Shown: piece after piece, positions 16,739-23,025 of the stretch
Numbering within the stretch: position 1 is the first letter of the stretch
How the letters are laid out: every line of letters begins with the position of its first letter
Source of the DNA: Planctomycetota bacterium
Lineage (GTDB): Bacteria; Planctomycetota; UBA1135; JAKEFM01
DNA: 64,000 nt
Assembly (NCBI GenBank): GCA_022616055.1
Contig: JAKEFM010000091.1
Coordinates: 1 to 64,000, forward strand
Direction of reading: 5' to 3'
Position numbers and translations under genes: made by a program
The notes under the pieces: model-generated
What the model saw: the letters and a program-made list of their open reading frames with translations, nothing else
Databases searched by the model: none
Told to the model about the DNA's origin: nothing

Positions 16739-19654
16739 TTGAGCCGACCGCGCGGCCTCGTTCGCCTCCTCCTCCTGCTCGGGAGCCCCGCGCTCCTCCC
16801 CGGCCCGGCGCTCGCCCCGGCCCAGGACCCCGCCCCGCAGGAGGAGGCGGAGGAGGTCGAATCGACGGAGGAGGGGGAGGCCCTCCTCGCGCGCGGGGAG
16901 TACGAGCGCGCCCTCTCCCTCTTCGACCGGATCCTCGCGCGCGCGCCGGGGGAGGCGGGGGCGCTCCTGGGGAAGGCGAACGCCCTGCGGTCGATCGGCC
17001 GCTACGAGGCGGCGATCGAGGCGCTCGAGTGGGGGGCCGCCACCCCGGAGGCGCTCCGCGCGCTCGGGGAGGCCCGCGCGGCGCTCGGCCGGCGGGAGGG
17101 GGCCGAGGAGGCGCTGCGCGCGGCGGGGAAGGACCCCTCCGACCTCGTCTCGCGGGAGGCGCTCGCCGCGTTCCTGGAGGAGGTCGGCCGCCGCAAGGAG
17201 GCGGAGGAGATCCGGCGCGACCTCGCGCGCCTCGCGACGAGGACCGTCGTCGAGGACTCCGCGCGGCTGGTCGCGCTCGGCCGGGCGTACGCGGCGCTCG
17301 GCCGCGCCGAGGACGCCTCCGAGGTCTTCGTCGAGGCGCTGCGCCTGGAGGAAGGAAGGGGGGATGCGGCCGTGGCGCTCGGGGACCTCTACTTCCGCGT
17401 GTACCGCGACGCGCAGGGGAGCCCGAGCGCCGTCGAGGAGTACAACCAGGTCCTGCGACGCAACCCCCGGAACGTCGAGGCCCTCCTCGGATGCTTCCGG
17501 GTCTACCGCTCGAACTTCGCCCGGGATGGCTCGAAGACGGAGGGGTTCCTCCGCAAGGCCCTCGAGACGAACCCGAGGTGCGTCGAGGCGCTCGTCGAGC
17601 AGGCGGCGCTGCGGATCACGGACCGGCGGTTCGAGGAGGCCCGCGCGAGCCTCCTCGAGGCCCGCCGCGTGAACCCCCTCGACCGGGGGGCGCGGGCCAA
17701 CCTCGCCGCGCTCGACCTCCTCGAGGGGAAGCGGGAGGCCTACGAGGAGGGCGCGAAGGCCCTGGTCGAGGAGTGCCCCGGCTCGGGGGAGCCCTCGGCG
17801 ACGGCGGGGAAGGCGCTCGTCGAGCTCTACCGGTTCCCGGAGGCGGTCCCGTTCCTGCGGGAGGCGGTGCGCCTCGAGCCGGGCCTCGCGGAGGCGTGGA
17901 CCGACCTCGGGCGCGCCCTCGCGAACTGCGGGAACGAGAAGGAGGGGATCGAGGCGCTGCGCCGCGCCGAGGGGACCGACCGCGGCTTCCTCCACCCCTG
18001 GCGCAAGAACATGCTCTCGGTCCTGGAGAAGCTCGAGGGGACCTACGAGGACAAGGAGGCCTCCCCCTTCAAGTTCCGCCTCCATCCCGAGGAGGCTCCC
18101 GTCCTCGGCGAGCTCCTTCCTCCCCTCCTGCTCGAGGCCCTCGAGGACCTCTCGAAGCGCTACGGGTTCCGGCCGGAGGGGGAGGTCCTCGTCGAGGTGT
18201 TCCACGAGTACGGCGACTTCTCCGTCCGGACGGTGGGCTTCACCGGCTTCGGGGCCCTCGGGGTCTGCTTCGGGCCGGTGGTGACGGCGGTCTCCCCCCT
18301 CGCGGGTGAAGTGCGGGGGAAGTTCTCCTGGGAGGCGACGGTGTGGCACGAGTTCGCCCACGTCGTCACGATCGCGCTCTCCCGCGCCCGCGTCCCGCGC
18401 TGGCTCACGGAGGGGCTCTCCGTCCTCGAGGAGAAGCGCCGGGACCCGGGGTTCGACCGGGGGATGGACCTCGAGCTCGCCAACGCGCGCGCGAGCGGGA
18501 CGATCTACCCGATCGAGGAGCTGAACGGCGCCTTCCGGACGCCGAACATCCTCTTCGGCTACTACCAGGGGGGGCTCGTCTGCGAGTGGATCGAGAAGAA
18601 CTACCCCTTCGAGACCTTCCGGAAGATGCTCCGGCTCTACGGCGAGGACAAGAGCACGCGGGAGGTCCTGCGGGAGTCCCTCTCCCTCGAGCCGGCGGAG
18701 TTCGACAAGCGCTTCCTCGCCTTCGTCGACGAGAAGCTCGAGGACGTCCGGGTCGAGCCGACGCGGACGGAGGAGGGGCTCCGGCGGCTGCGCGCGCGCG
18801 TGCGGGAGGCGCCCCAGGATCTCGACGCGGCGATCTCCCTCGCCTGGGAGCAGGCGAAGCGGCGCAATCCCGTCGACGCGGAGGAGGGGCTGCGGCGCGT
18901 GCGGGCGCGCTCGCCCGACCACGCCAAAGCCCACCTGCTCGCGGGGGAGCTCGCCTTCGCGCGGGGGCGCACGGACGTCGCGCGGGCGGAGTACGAGGCG
19001 GGCTTCGCGGGCGGGGCGGAGGAGTTCTTCGCCCGCGCCCACTACGCGAGGCTCCTCGAGGGGGAGAAGGAGTTCGACCGGGCGATCGAGGCGTGGCGCG
19101 CGGCGAAGGCGGCCTTCCCCCGGTTCAGCGCGGACCCCACCCTCTCCCCGCACCTCGCCCTCCAGCGCCTCCTCGCCGGCGCGGGCCGGACGGAGGAGGC
19201 GCGGAAGGAGCTCGAGGAGTTCGCCGGGCTCGGGGTGAAGTCGTCCGATCCCTTCGTCGAGCTGGCGACCTACGCCGAGGGGAGCGAGGACGCCGCGGCG
19301 GCGGAGAAGTGGCTTCGCCGGGCGATCGGCGTCGAGCCCTTCCGGCGCGACCTCCACGCCCGCCTCGGCCGGGCGCAGCGCACGCTCGGGGCGCTCGAGG
19401 CGGCCGTCCGCTCCTTCCGGGTCGCGCGCGCCGTGCGTCCCGAGCTCGACGCGCTCGCCGGGCGCGGGGAGCGGGAGGAGGGGGCCGACGCGCGGGAGCG
19501 GGCCGAGCTCTTCCGCGAGGAGGCGGAGACCCAGCTTCTTCGGAAGGACCGGGCCGCCGCCGCCGAGGCGGCGCGGCGCGCCCTCGAGCTCGACCCGGGC
19601 GACGCGCGGGCGGCGGAGATCCTCGATCTCGCCGGGCGACCCTCCTCGGGTTGA
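16739..19654 (+). CDS. Secreted TPR protein with peptidase MA-like zincin domain
   Basis: 971 aa. A signal peptide (LVRLLLLLGSPALLPGPALA) is followed by about 440 residues of TPR repeats (GEYERALSLFDRILARAPGE and similar). About residues 450-660 form a peptidase MA-like (DUF1570-type) domain with HEFAH at 537-541 and VPRWLTEGLSVLEE downstream, the Glu-containing second motif. More TPR repeats fill 680-971. It is probably periplasmic or surface bound. The substrate is unknown and some relatives may be scaffolds. The start is TTG at 16739, set by the signal peptide. Confidence 0.85.
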   Translation: MSRPRGLVRLLLLLGSPALLPGPALAPAQDPAPQEEAEEVESTEEGEALLARGEYERALSLFDRILARAPGEAGALLGKANALRSIGRYEAAIEALEWGAATPEALRALGEARAALGRREGAEEALRAAGKDPSDLVSREALAAFLEEVGRRKEAEEIRRDLARLATRTVVEDSARLVALGRAYAALGRAEDASEVFVEALRLEEGRGDAAVALGDLYFRVYRDAQGSPSAVEEYNQVLRRNPRNVEALLGCFRVYRSNFARDGSKTEGFLRKALETNPRCVEALVEQAALRITDRRFEEARASLLEARRVNPLDRGARANLAALDLLEGKREAYEEGAKALVEECPGSGEPSATAGKALVELYRFPEAVPFLREAVRLEPGLAEAWTDLGRALANCGNEKEGIEALRRAEGTDRGFLHPWRKNMLSVLEKLEGTYEDKEASPFKFRLHPEEAPVLGELLPPLLLEALEDLSKRYGFRPEGEVLVEVFHEYGDFSVRTVGFTGFGALGVCFGPVVTAVSPLAGEVRGKFSWEATVWHEFAHVVTIALSRARVPRWLTEGLSVLEEKRRDPGFDRGMDLELANARASGTIYPIEELNGAFRTPNILFGYYQGGLVCEWIEKNYPFETFRKMLRLYGEDKSTREVLRESLSLEPAEFDKRFLAFVDEKLEDVRVEPTRTEEGLRRLRARVREAPQDLDAAISLAWEQAKRRNPVDAEEGLRRVRARSPDHAKAHLLAGELAFARGRTDVARAEYEAGFAGGAEEFFARAHYARLLEGEKEFDRAIEAWRAAKAAFPRFSADPTLSPHLALQRLLAGAGRTEEARKELEEFAGLGVKSSDPFVELATYAEGSEDAAAAEKWLRRAIGVEPFRRDLHARLGRAQRTLGALEAAVRSFRVARAVRPELDALAGRGEREEGADARERAELFREEAETQLLRKDRAAAAEAARRALELDPGDARAAEILDLAGRPSSG

Positions 19655-19678
19655 CCGCCGCCGCCGCGCTCTTACACT
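19651..19678 (+). promoter_or_regulatory. Sigma-70-like promoter for the dnaA-like/tmk/holB operon
   Basis: ttgacc at 19651-19656 and tacact at 19673-19678 with a 16-base spacer. The -35 overlaps the stop codon of the preceding gene. The -10 is about 30 bases before the TTG start. This is the best consensus-like promoter I found in the window. Confidence 0.55.
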
Positions 19679-19708: not shown

Positions 19709-20572
19709 TTGCTCGTCCCCCTGTTCCGCCGCTCCTCCCTCTCCGGCCACCGCGACGGTCACCGTCCGGGGACGAGGGCCTTCCCGCTGACGGAGGAGAA
19801 CCGCCACGCCGTCCTCGCGGCGCGGGAAGCGGCGGCGAATCCGGGGGGGATCTTCAATCCGCTCCTCCTCCTCGGCCCTCCGCGGGCCGGCAAGTCGGGG
19901 CTCCTCGCCGCGCTCGCCGCGGACTTCGCGCGCCAGGGGCTGCGCCCCTGCCTCCTGCGCGTGCGCGAGCTGGGGGCGCGCTTCGTGCGCGCCGCCCGGA
20001 GGGGACGGCTCGAGGATCTGACGCTCGGCCTCCTCGGCCACGGCGCCCTCCTCCTCGACGAGGCGGAGCGGTTCGCCGGCCGCGAGCGCCTCTGCCGCAC
20101 CTCGGCGGCGATCGTCGAGTCGTTCCTCTGCCGGCGCAGCCCCGTCGCCGCCGCGAGCCGGCTCCACCCCCGGGAGCTCCCGGGGTTCGATCCACGCCTT
20201 GCCGCCCTCCTCGACGGGGGATTCCGCGCCACGATCGGGGAGAGGAGCGGGAGGCCGACCCTCGAGGGGATCGCGGCCGATACGGCGAGGAGGACCGGCG
20301 TCGAGCCCGGGGCGCTGCGGGGACGCGGGCGCTCGGCGTCTCGCGCCTCCGCCCGGGGCGAGTTCGTCCTCGCGGCGCTCGAGGCGGGCTTCACCCTCCC
20401 CGAGGTCGGCCGCTTCCTCGGCGACCGGTCGGTGGAGGCGGTCGGGCACCTCGCGCACCGGGCGCGCGCGCGCGTCCGGTCGGCCGCCGCCGCGCCGGTG
20501 GGAGCGATCGTCGCGGCGGTGGGAGCGATCGCCGCGCCGGTCGGAGCGATTGGAGGCGCGTTCGCGGGATGA
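19709..20572 (+). CDS. Divergent DnaA-like AAA+ protein
   Basis: 287 aa. Residues about 25-190 resemble DnaA domain III: FNPLLLLGPPRAGKS (Walker A at 56-63), a Walker B-like ALLLDEAERF near 113-122 and a LHPRELPGFDPRL segment matching the DnaA HPxELPxLDxRL motif. About 195-260 resembles DnaA domain IV (GVEPGALRGRGRS, then FTLPEVGRFLGDRSVEAVGHL), but the DHSTV DNA-recognition signature is altered. Domains I-II are absent, so this is not the main initiator. An Hda/DnaA-paralogue regulating replication is possible. The C-terminus carries Ala/Gly/Val repeats from a 21-bp DNA repeat. Coupled to tmk by ATGA. Confidence 0.7.
   Translation: MLVPLFRRSSLSGHRDGHRPGTRAFPLTEENRHAVLAAREAAANPGGIFNPLLLLGPPRAGKSGLLAALAADFARQGLRPCLLRVRELGARFVRAARRGRLEDLTLGLLGHGALLLDEAERFAGRERLCRTSAAIVESFLCRRSPVAAASRLHPRELPGFDPRLAALLDGGFRATIGERSGRPTLEGIAADTARRTGVEPGALRGRGRSASRASARGEFVLAALEAGFTLPEVGRFLGDRSVEAVGHLAHRARARVRSAAAAPVGAIVAAVGAIAAPVGAIGGAFAG
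20498..20558 (+). repeat. Three 21-bp tandem repeats inside the dnaA-like gene
   Basis: Units start at 20498, 20519 and 20540, each containing gt(g/c)ggagcgat, and encode VGAIVAA, VGAIAAP and VGAIGG. The third unit is diverged. In-frame period and location at the extreme 3' end suggest slippage-driven length variation. Confidence 0.75.
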
Positions 20573-21180
20573 GGCGAGGGGTCTTCCTCGTGCTCGACGG
20601 GCCGGACGGGGCGGGGAAGACGACGCAGGTCGCGCGGCTCGCCCGACGGCTCCGGCGCAGCGGGAGGCGCGTCCTCGTCGTCCGGGAGCCGGGCGGGACC
20701 CCGCTCGGCGAGGCGCTGCGGCGACTCCTCCTTCACGGCTCGATCCCGATCGGGGCGGGGGCGCAGGCGCTCCTCTTCGGGGCCGCCCGCGCGGAGCTGC
20801 TCGAGCAGGTCGTCGGCCCCGCGCTGCGGCGCGGCTGGGTCGTCCTCTCCGACCGGGGGACCCCCTCGACCTTCGCCTATCAGGGGATCGCGGGGTCGGT
20901 GGGGGGGGAGCGCGTCCTCGCGCTCGCCCGGGCCTTCCACGGCGAGCCGGAGGCGAACCTCCTCCTCCTCCTCGACGTCCCCCCCGAGGTCGCGAGGGCC
21001 CGGCGGCGAGGGCGGGATCGCTTCGAGCGGAGGGGGCTCCCCTACGCGCGCGCCGTGCGCCGCGGATTCCAGGCCTTCGCCCGCCGCGGCGGCGGGCGCG
21101 TGCGCCTTCTCGACGGGTCGGCTCCGAGGGGCGAGGTCGAGGAGGCGATCTGGCGTGCCGTCCGCCCCCTCGTTTCCTGA
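20569..21180 (+). CDS. tmk: Thymidylate kinase
   Basis: 203 aa, the usual length. It phosphorylates dTMP to dTDP. P-loop GPDGAGKTTQ near residues 11-20, the VREPGGTPLGEALR dTMP-binding motif and the SDRGTPSTFAYQG motif (commonly DRYxxSxxAYQG; here Gly-Thr-Pro replaces the usual aromatic context). The lid is Arg-rich (ARARRRGRDRFERR). The ATG overlaps the dnaA-like stop. The end overlaps the holB start by 26 bases, the common tmk-holB arrangement. Confidence 0.93.
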   Translation: MRRGVFLVLDGPDGAGKTTQVARLARRLRRSGRRVLVVREPGGTPLGEALRRLLLHGSIPIGAGAQALLFGAARAELLEQVVGPALRRGWVVLSDRGTPSTFAYQGIAGSVGGERVLALARAFHGEPEANLLLLLDVPPEVARARRRGRDRFERRGLPYARAVRRGFQAFARRGGGRVRLLDGSAPRGEVEEAIWRAVRPLVS

Positions 21181-22201
21181 CGTCGCGGGGCACGAGGCGA
21201 GCCGGGCCTTCCTCGGGCGTCTATTCGGGGAGGGGAGGCTTCCTCACGCGATCCTCCTCGCCGGTCCGGACGGGATCGGGAAGACCCGGCTCGCCCGGGG
21301 GCTCGCGCGGGGGAAGCTCTGCGAGAGAGGGCCGGCGCAGGGGTGCGGGACCTGCGGCTCCTGCCGCCTCTTCGAGTCCGGGGCGCACGCCGACTTCCTC
21401 CTCGTCGATCCTCCCGGCGCGACGATCCCGATCGCCGCGATCCGGGGCGGGGAAGGGGAGGCGCAGGAGCCGGGAGCCGCGGGCCCCGGGCTCGTCGACT
21501 GGATCGGCCGCAGGGCCTCCGGTCCGAGGGGGAAGTGTGCGCTCGTGCGCGACGCGGGGCGGATGAACGTCTTCGCGCAGAACGCCCTCCTGAAGACCCT
21601 CGAGGAGCCGCCGGAGGGCTCCCTCCTCCTCCTCACGGCGACCTCGGTCGACTCCCTCCTCGGGACCGTCGCGTCCCGCTGCCTCTGCCTGCGCCTCCGA
21701 CCCCTGAAGGTGGAGGAGGTCGAGCGCCACCTGCGCGAGCGGGGGCTCGGCGCCGGGCGGGAGGCGGAGGCGGCGGCCTTCTCGGGGGGCTCGATCGGCG
21801 CCGCCCTCGCCTACCTCGAGGTCGCTCCGGGGAGGAAGGCGTGGGAGCAGGCGGAGCGCCTGATCTCGGGGGAGCCGTTCTCCCCCTCCCTCCGGGACGA
21901 GCTCTTCGCCTCCCTCGGCGCGAAGTCGGCGGCGGCCGACCGGCGCGCCCTGGCCCGGACGTTCCTCACCTGGACCGGCCTCCTCCTGCACCGGCGCTGG
22001 AGGGACGCGGTTGCGGGGGGGGGCGGGGCGGCCTATGTTCCTTCCCCGGATCCGACGCGGGCCCTCGAGGATCTCCTCGCGACGGCGGGTCGTGCCCTCC
22101 GCGACCTCGAGGCCAACGTCGAGCCCGGACTCCTCCTCGACCTCCTCGAGGCCGACGTCACGCGCGCGTGCAGGCTTTCGCCTCCGTCCGCTACGGCTTG
22201 A
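21155..22201 (+). CDS. holB: DNA polymerase III delta' subunit-like clamp-loader ATPase
   Basis: 348 aa. Features of HolB/DnaX-type proteins: Walker A GPDGIGKT near residue 38, a zinc module CGTCGSCRLFESGAHAD, the sensor region AQNALLKTLEEPPEG and the SRC-like ASRCLCLRLRPL arginine-finger region. It loads the sliding clamp with the DnaX and HolA proteins. The GTG start at 21155 lies inside tmk. The stop overlaps the internal ATG of the PSP1 gene. Confidence 0.9.
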   Translation: MPSAPSFPDVAGHEASRAFLGRLFGEGRLPHAILLAGPDGIGKTRLARGLARGKLCERGPAQGCGTCGSCRLFESGAHADFLLVDPPGATIPIAAIRGGEGEAQEPGAAGPGLVDWIGRRASGPRGKCALVRDAGRMNVFAQNALLKTLEEPPEGSLLLLTATSVDSLLGTVASRCLCLRLRPLKVEEVERHLRERGLGAGREAEAAAFSGGSIGAALAYLEVAPGRKAWEQAERLISGEPFSPSLRDELFASLGAKSAAADRRALARTFLTWTGLLLHRRWRDAVAGGGGAAYVPSPDPTRALEDLLATAGRALRDLEANVEPGLLLDLLEADVTRACRLSPPSATA

Positions 22202-23025
22202 TGCGCTACAAGGGGACGTTCCGGACGTCCCTCCTCGACCTGCGCGCAGGGGAGGAGTGCGTCGTGCGGACGCCCAGGGGACAGGAGGGAGGGGTCGTGC
22301 TGGCTCCCCCGCGGACCGCCGCGGACCACCCTTGCAGCGCCTGCAGCCTGACCGGGGACCTCCTGCGGCGCGCGAACGAGGAGGACCGGTCGCAGGCCCG
22401 GGCGCTCGCGGTGCGGGGGACGGCCCGGGAGGCCCGGATCTGCCGGGAGAGGATCGCCGCCCAGGGACTGCCGATCCGCCTGGCGGGGGTCGAGGCGCTC
22501 CTCGGCGGGGAGAGGCTCGTCGTCTACTTCGTCTCCGAGGAGAGGATCGACTTCCGCGCCCTCGTGCGCGACCTCTCCGAGCGCCTCGCGGCGCGCGTCG
22601 AGATGCGCCAGATCGGGGCGCGCGACGACGCCCGGCTCGTCGGGGAGTACGGCCACTGCGGCCGGCGGCTGTGCTGCAAGGCGTGGCTCCCGGAGATCAA
22701 GCCGATCTCGATGCGGATGGCGAAGGTCCAGAAGTCGACCCTCGACCCGACGAAGATCTCGGGGCAGTGCGGGAGGCTCCTCTGCTGCCTGCGCTACGAG
22801 GACGAGGTCTACACGGAGTTCCGCCAGACCCTCCCGAGGCGCGGGGAGCGCGTCGACACGCCCCGCGGGCCCGGCGAGGTCCTCGAGCAGGAGATCCTCC
22901 CCCGCCGCGTGCGCGTCCTCCTCGGGAGCGGGGAGCGCGCCGTCTACCCCGCCTCCGAGGTCGTGCGGCGCCCCGAGCCCGGCCGCGGGGCGAGCGCGGC
23001 GCAGGAACCGGAAGGCGGGGAGTGA
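22168..23025 (+). CDS. PSP1/RicT (YaaT)-like protein
   Basis: 285 aa. PSP1 core at about residues 70-190 with the cysteine clusters HPCSACS, YGHCGRRLCC and SGQCGRLLCCLRYE. In RicT-type proteins these belong to a complex with RicA and RicF carrying iron-sulfur clusters and influencing RNA processing. Location after holB is widely conserved. The GTG at 22168 is preferred over the ATG at 22201 because the family's N-terminal VRYG strand would otherwise be lost. Confidence 0.88.
   Translation: MQAFASVRYGLMRYKGTFRTSLLDLRAGEECVVRTPRGQEGGVVLAPPRTAADHPCSACSLTGDLLRRANEEDRSQARALAVRGTAREARICRERIAAQGLPIRLAGVEALLGGERLVVYFVSEERIDFRALVRDLSERLAARVEMRQIGARDDARLVGEYGHCGRRLCCKAWLPEIKPISMRMAKVQKSTLDPTKISGQCGRLLCCLRYEDEVYTEFRQTLPRRGERVDTPRGPGEVLEQEILPRRVRVLLGSGERAVYPASEVVRRPEPGRGASAAQEPEGGE

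Follow-up and report, generated by a model that had tools for sequence, protein, structure and literature searches.

A DnaA-like gene that runs directly into tmk and holB, in a genome with an ordinary dnaA elsewhere, raises the question of what it is: a displaced initiator, a remnant of one, or a DnaA relative with a role of its own. We examined one such gene, here called dnaA2 (Table 1), in the window, meaning the whole 64-kb stretch of DNA that was analysed. The window belongs to a 5.78-Mb assembly in 394 contigs (94.6 per cent complete), the sole member of family f1 among the relatives searched.

Table 1. Features of the dnaA2 locus, with positions in the window.
Feature	Position	Strand	Remarks
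Upstream TPR / peptidase-MA-like gene	16739..19654	+	
Sigma-70-type promoter-like site TTGACC-16-TACACT	19651..19678	+	Single match in 4.5 kb
dnaA2 ('DnaL'), reduced DnaA paralogue	19709..20572	+	287 aa, TTG start
Walker A LGPPRAGKSGL	19871..19903	+	Lys62 = E. coli Lys178
Walker B ALLLDE	20045..20062	+	DE where DnaA has DD
Sensor-1 region ASRLHP	20153..20170	+	Arg151 at E. coli Asp269 position
AAA+ lid-less junction, core straight into domain IV	20237..20254	+	
Domain IV-like helix-turn-helix	20255..20482	+	Recognition motif GDRSVEAV
Three 21-nt direct repeats	20488..20550	+	Encode C-terminal tail rich in Ala, Gly, Val
tmk (thymidylate kinase)	20569..21180	+	TIGR00041 136.4 bits, cut-off 83.25
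holB (DNA polymerase III delta')	21155..22201	+	PF13177 111.7 bits; TIGR00678 160.4 bits, cut-off 180.6
PSP1-domain (RicT/YaaT-type) gene	22201..23025	+	PF04468 77.9 bits

The protein matched the Pfam family Bac_DnaA (PF00308) over residues 28–172 with 38.3 bits (cut-off 23, E 1.9e-9) and, weakly, Bac_DnaA_C (PF08299) over residues 188–242 with 15.6 bits (cut-off 31.5). Its score against the DnaA equivalog TIGR00362 was 45.6 bits, far under the cut-off of 343.9. A PDB profile search with the protein returned the DnaA structures 1l8q, 2hcb, and 8btg as its top matches. GC content at the three codon positions (0.80/0.61/0.92) resembles that of the neighbouring genes and is coding-like. A preliminary description of this DNA had reported a DnaA-type ATPase core, an HPxELPxLDxRL-like motif, the loss of domain I, and a changed DNA-recognition motif. 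All four were borne out: the core matches PF00308 above its cut-off and the 1l8q fold with Z 24.0; the motif reads ASRLHPRELPGFDPRL at residues 149–164; the AAA+ domain is preceded by just 20 residues, compared with a median of 170 in ordinary DnaA; and GDRSVEAV replaces GG(R/K)DHTTV. Its account of the domains was right about domain I but missed the deletion of the whole AAA+ lid, to which we return below.

PF00308 found two genes in the window genome, namely the window gene (39.8 bits in this search) and an ordinary DnaA (DnaA1, locus L082 on contig C341; 208.9 bits, 490-codon frame). DnaA1 has domains I, III, and IV all above Pfam cut-offs, and its gene adjoins dnaN and gyrB, away from tmk-holB. 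A DciA match (33.4 bits, G000:C341) lies about 2 kb from dnaA1. Elsewhere in the order, the dnaA1 loci of family f6 (L172–L177 and L179) have neither dnaN nor gyrB beside dnaA.

We built a maximum-likelihood tree from seventy-four rows and 336 columns spanning the AAA+ domain and all that follows it, with twenty-eight further rows left out (Hda, near-duplicate DnaA1 and f5 sequences, and one cut row). The tree places DnaA1 and E. coli DnaA on one side and every second copy on the other (100/99), and the thirty-six tmk-linked rows form one group (96/97) with the window row inside. The window row falls near f2 and f7, and its exact place within the group is unsure because its branch is long (2.1). 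An AU test rejected the pairing of the window gene with the DnaA1 of its own genome (p 0.0012). Long branches may attract each other, and the shared place 5' of tmk gives independent support for the grouping. The preliminary description had held that this was not the housekeeping DnaA and had named clustering with canonical dnaA as the outcome that would speak against it; that clustering did not occur. The tree, the AU test, and the separate DnaA1 locus together rule out a canonical or recently duplicated dnaA. We are highly confident that the window gene belongs to a group of DnaA paralogues of long standing in Planctomycetota, which we call DnaA2.

The conservation of gene order was assessed across forty-one genomes of the order (the window genome and forty relatives), which were searched with the window protein and thymidylate kinase and whose tmk loci were then read. 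In nineteen of them a DnaA paralogue stands directly 5' of tmk-holB (one genome from f1, one from f2, eight from f5, seven from f6, and two from f7). Additional to these is G035 (f6), where one gene is inserted between DnaA2 and tmk. The remaining twenty-one comprise ten f4 and nine f8 genomes without DnaA2, plus two excluded from judging: G002, which lacks a full tmk, and G034, which lacks both tmk and DnaA2. When named genomes were scanned with the f5 version, twenty-six loci came up, twenty-four from Planctomycetota (one of them CL500-15) and two labelled only as bacterium. Across 246 genomes of the phylum, a DnaA paralogue was found directly 5' of tmk in at least fourteen genomes from eight other families (f11, f15, f24, f27, f33, f43, f47, and f54). 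These copies from outside the order are mostly about 430–490 aa long and less reduced. Eight further divergent second copies in other families (L148, L150, L153, L154, L156, L159, L161, and L163) had no tmk in the fetched flanks. The dnaA-like/tmk/holB order, which the preliminary description had named as a point to check, is therefore conserved among relatives of the same order, and the place 5' of tmk is conserved beyond it. The absence of the gene from relatives, which that description had listed as counting against its proposal, was not what we found, although f4 and f8 are without it. On the sequences compared, DnaA2 is judged to predate the order.

The two families without the gene were examined separately. 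None of the thirteen f4 and f8 loci fetched had DnaA2 near tmk, though tmk-holB was present. A PF00308 search of thirty-one f4 and f8 genomes gave no match judged to be DnaA2 in any of them, the weaker matches in G020, G042, G107, and G108 being judged by partial match and repeated copies alone. The matches consisted of DnaA1, one second ordinary DnaA, and partial matches that we judge IstB-like; of the extra ones that were opened, L167, L168, and L169 were IstB-like and L170 was the second ordinary DnaA. Two f8 genomes, G020 and G107, each carry several near-identical partial PF00308 matches, probably the IstB of IS21-type elements. In f8 loci L092, L093, L094, and L098 tmk is directly preceded by a gene related to the window's TPR/peptidase gene, so these neighbourhoods match the window's in other respects and dnaA2 is plainly missing from them. 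At L087 and L091 other ORFs lie between these two genes.

Key DnaA residues were tallied in one alignment of forty-seven DnaA1, forty-five tmk-linked, and eight other second copies, using E. coli numbering; left out beforehand were sixteen f5 loci that were near-duplicates or cut, as well as both ORF halves of L162. The forty-five rows called tmk-linked include some assigned by hand: L074 and L136 (adjacent by position), L080 (one gene between), L138 (at the edge of its contig, tmk not seen), as well as L103, L118, and L120, which were counted as f5-type relatives although the tmk check gave no flag. L074, L080, L136, and L138 belong to the tree's group of thirty-six.

Walker A and B are kept. 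The Walker A Lys is present in 47/47 DnaA1 and in all forty-four tmk-linked rows that cover the site (the forty-fifth is cut there), and the second Asp of Walker B is Glu in forty of forty-five tmk-linked rows. The sensors and contact surfaces have changed. Asp269 of sensor 1 is Asp in 47/47 DnaA1 and 1/45 tmk-linked rows, with Arg in forty-four of the forty-five. Sensor-2 Arg334 (47/47 versus 1/45) is deleted in the window copy, Arg227 goes from 47/47 to 3/45, and the arginine finger Arg285 goes from 47/47 to 14/45, the latter including all eight f6 rows; the window copy has Leu167 at this position. Within domain IV, the DNA-backbone residue Arg407 is kept throughout (47/47 and 45/45), while His434 of the DnaA-box motif is found in 47/47 DnaA1 and 4/45 tmk-linked rows. 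At D433, H434, T435, and T436 the window copy has S, V, E, and A. The recognition motif is constant inside families and differs among them; most f5 rows, for instance, read RTRAAVSY and most f6 rows SASS.

In DnaA, residues D433, H434, T435, R399, and R407 have roles in reading DNA. A unique Asp in sensor 1 is reportedly required for the high affinity of DnaA for ATP and ADP, going by the title of a 2006 paper by Kawakami et al. that PMC5835720 lists among its references. In the portions available of a review (PMC5742627), sensor-1 motifs add to the very high ATP/ADP affinity of DnaA, Arg285 and Arg227 are needed for contacts of domain III, and Arg334 serves ATP hydrolysis. Judged from its sequences, DnaA2 has lost the residues of the nucleotide switch, of head-to-tail filament formation, and of DnaA-box reading. 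The eight other second copies are intermediate (Arg285 in 8/8, Arg334 in 6/8, and Asp269 in 5/8), and these copies, listed above, seem to stand at an earlier point in the history of this paralogue.

The window copy is among the most reduced members of DnaA2 and marks the reduced end of the paralogue group. Its AAA+ lid (domain IIIb) is deleted, with ten residues at the place where the medians are eighty-three in DnaA1 and seventy in tmk-linked DnaA2. An AlphaFold2 model of the protein (mean pLDDT 84.8, pTM 0.61, residues 1–21 below pLDDT 50) shows a RecA-like core and then domain IV helices from residue 185, with no lid helices. The model of L099, an f5 relative (mean pLDDT 87.4), contains an N-terminal domain and the core, with helices at 250–297 where the lid would be, as well as domain IV helices; an f5 relative also retains the DnaA_N domain I at 49.1 bits. 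We considered whether a frameshift might hide the missing domains and rejected this: the core passes directly into domain IV within one frame, and the window model has no lid whereas the f5 relative shows lid helices. Without the lid, ATP binding by the window copy is doubtful. In a fold search with the window model, DnaA 1l8q was the best match (Z 24.0; DnaA rows 23–24), with an alignment that takes in domain IV of DnaA. Hda followed at Z 17.5–17.8 and DnaC, DnaI, and IstB at Z 15–17.5. At the C-terminus, relatives mostly stop before the window's tail, and the repeat-coded tail was absent by eye from nineteen relatives in alignment A1, with L078 and L079 having tails unlike it. An IstB/IS21 helper was also considered for the gene on account of weak Pfam and NCBIfam matches, but domain IV, synteny, and the tree assign it to DnaA2.

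The operon structure agrees with the preliminary description, which had pointed to an ATGA link to tmk-holB and to a promoter of the gene's own. dnaA2 and tmk overlap by ATGA (20569–20572), tmk and holB by 26 nt, and holB and the PSP1-domain gene by TGATG (22199–22203). The promoter-like site just 5' of dnaA2 is of a type expected 0.0 times (sd 0.2) in shuffles of the 4.5 kb searched. By the same rule there was no sigma-70 match in any of thirty-four other dnaA2 upstream stretches scanned, so the promoter form seen in the window is not conserved. A different element, [CT]TAG[CG]GTT, recurs by eye shortly 5' of f5 dnaA2 (e.g. L066, L100, L102, and L107), and is possibly a promoter of the operon or an operator. 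No DnaA boxes of the usual kind were found near the window dnaA2, and the whole 64 kb contains two matches with at most one mismatch versus 1.63 expected. The window genome also has three further thymidylate-kinase-like matches on contigs C264 and C190, two of them adjacent on C264.

What, then, might DnaA2 do? Because the sensor-1 Asp, sensor 2, and in most rows the arginine finger are lost, and given their published roles, DnaA2 should not cycle between ATP and ADP or build an ATP-linked filament, and it would presumably be unable to serve as an ATP-switched initiator. Its ancestry, kept DNA-binding domain, kept ATP-site core, and operon suggest that it is most likely a regulator or partner of DnaA1. 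We put the probability that DnaA2 is a replication regulator or DnaA partner, rather than a protein with another role, at about 0.5. Such a protein would bind DNA with its own specificity and adjust initiation or early replication. It might join DnaA1, accept a neighbour, and offer no arginine finger, acting as a cap or poison subunit, or it might occupy sites close to oriC. Since DnaA2 is made together with Tmk, delta', and the PSP1 protein, its amount would track the supply of dTTP and the production of the clamp loader. Against a regulatory role, f4 and f8, two large families of the order, manage without DnaA2, no usual DnaA box lies near the gene, and a place next to replication genes says little about function.

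Capping of DnaA filaments specifically is a tentative proposal, and it does not fit all tmk-linked rows because fourteen of the forty-five keep Arg285. Hda, YabA, SirA, and SeqA are known factors in the control of initiation. Just as tentatively, we can picture something unlike any of these four: a second DnaA lineage, genetically tied to dTMP kinase and the clamp loader, its nucleotide switch rewired and its filament surfaces gone, that would antagonise or cap DnaA filaments as a built-in control and would have DNA sites of its own. The near-invariant sensor-1 Arg might then work in cis on the ATP site. In the window lineage even the AAA+ lid could be done without, and what is left would be a minimal plug joined to a DNA-binding domain.

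Two rival readings concern transcription and decay. DnaA2 might be a transcription factor that recognises a new operator through domain IV and controls the expression of its own operon or of other genes, with no direct part in initiation. The kept domain IV alongside a lost nucleotide switch, the invariant Arg407, the family-specific recognition motifs, and the element recurring upstream of f5 dnaA2 are all consistent with this. We regard it as unlikely. Against it, a simple repressor would have no need of the Walker A Lys (44/44) or of the Walker B acidic pair kept in most rows, and tmk-holB functions without DnaA2 in f4 and f8. Alternatively, the window copy could be a decaying remnant of a functional family, on its way out. 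The long branch of its row, the deletion of the lid together with the loss of domain I and the finger, and the complete loss of dnaA2 from f4 and f8 would fit decay. Yet its frame is intact with coding-like composition, it is exactly coupled to tmk, and its model is confident despite the missing lid. Moreover, K62, D117, E118, R121, R151, P154, and R216 are invariant across the window copy and twenty-one aligned f5 relatives. Decay of the window copy seems to us quite improbable. As for the f5 gene, it is about as well conserved as the genes beside it: identities among four genomes (45–57 per cent for DnaA2) are close to those of tmk (44–52 per cent) and holB (41–48 per cent) and below those of DnaA1 (59–65 per cent).

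The remaining readings look to other AAA+ proteins. A helicase-loading or restart factor of the DnaC/DnaI type, working at forks and perhaps substituting for DciA in some families, would fit the finding that DciA (PF05258) was unmatched in 8/8 f6 genomes and matched in 33/33 others, and for the Arg285 kept in all eight f6 DnaA2 rows; the cores of DnaC, DnaI, and IstB do align with the window model. But DnaA rows align clearly better and cover domain IV, the window copy is without an N-terminal domain, the window genome has its own DciA match, and the DciA of f6 may merely be too divergent for detection. We think this role has little chance of being correct for DnaA2. The f6 genomes concerned are G005, G010, G015, G019, G023, G027, G031, and G035, and for them either a swap of the helicase-loading factor or a very divergent DciA is possible. 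Least probable is the suggestion of the preliminary description that the protein is perhaps like Hda, a factor that works on the sliding clamp and stimulates DnaA to hydrolyse ATP. It is indeed a small AAA+ protein related to DnaA that has neither domain I nor domain II, and Hda structures are among its fold matches. Its score against the Hda equivalog TIGR03420, however, is 16.7 bits where the cut-off is 194.8, and its first forty-five residues contain no clamp-binding motif by a scan that does find the motif of E. coli Hda. The same N-terminal motif is missing from forty-four of forty-five rows, with one loose match in L076. The arginine finger is Leu in the window protein and Arg in Hda, and DnaA2 retains the domain IV that Hda is without. 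On the equivalog score, the clamp scan, and the residue comparison we rejected membership in the Hda family.

Within open-licence PubMed Central, a collection outside of which most subscription papers and preprints lie, we found no paper that treats such a DnaA from Planctomycetota, whether as a tmk-linked gene or as a second copy of this type. This fits the earlier remark that such a factor is not described in the lineage, although extra dnaA copies are on record for Candidatus Kuenenia, which has three dnaA genes, one of them beside dnaN and gyrB (PMC7709395, in the part available). That case is alike in having multiple dnaA-annotated genes in the same phylum; it differs in that, within that part of the source, they were used only for placing the origin. 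What is known here is a DnaA-family protein; the phylum-level tmk-linked paralogue, the near-invariant Asp-to-Arg change in sensor 1, and the lid-less member are apparently new, as they were found in no paper searched. Replication timing in Planctomycetota appears to be little studied in the open-licence literature searched, and the loss of DnaA2 from two families of one order offers a natural comparison with and without a defined gene. DnaA2 would also be a case of a DnaA-family protein that has shed the ATP switch, the residues for box reading, and even the lid, and still retains its core and its DNA-binding domain. If genes are annotated by the DnaA domain alone, DnaA2 can be mistaken for the true initiator in the assignment of origins.

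Among known systems, DnaA itself (TIGR00362; 1l8q, 8btg) is the closest in both sequence and fold, sharing the AAA+ core with its two-helix initiator insertion and domain IV. The window copy differs from it at Asp269, Arg285, Arg334, and the DnaA-box residues, is without domain I and the lid, and does not lie at the dnaA-dnaN locus. Hda (TIGR03420; 3bos, 5x06) is likewise a DnaA paralogue in reduced form, with domains I and II missing, but it keeps the equivalents of Asp269, Arg285, and Arg334 along with an N-terminal clamp motif, and has no domain IV. For the clamp motif, Asp269, Arg285, and domain IV the window protein shows the reverse of each state, and its Arg334 region is missing altogether. 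The loaders DnaC, DnaI, and IstB (3ecc, 2w58, 8q3w) have the same initiator/loader-type AAA+ core and align at Z 15–17.5 against 24 for DnaA; to our knowledge they have no DnaA-type domain IV. YabA of Firmicutes is, as far as we know, no relative of DnaA, and in B. subtilis we take the gene order to be tmk-holB-yaaT-yabA. By analogy YabA would be a parallel in gene place only, with no homology: in the pneumococcus, according to the portion available of one source (PMC8387234), this DnaA regulator is encoded in one operon with tmk and holB.
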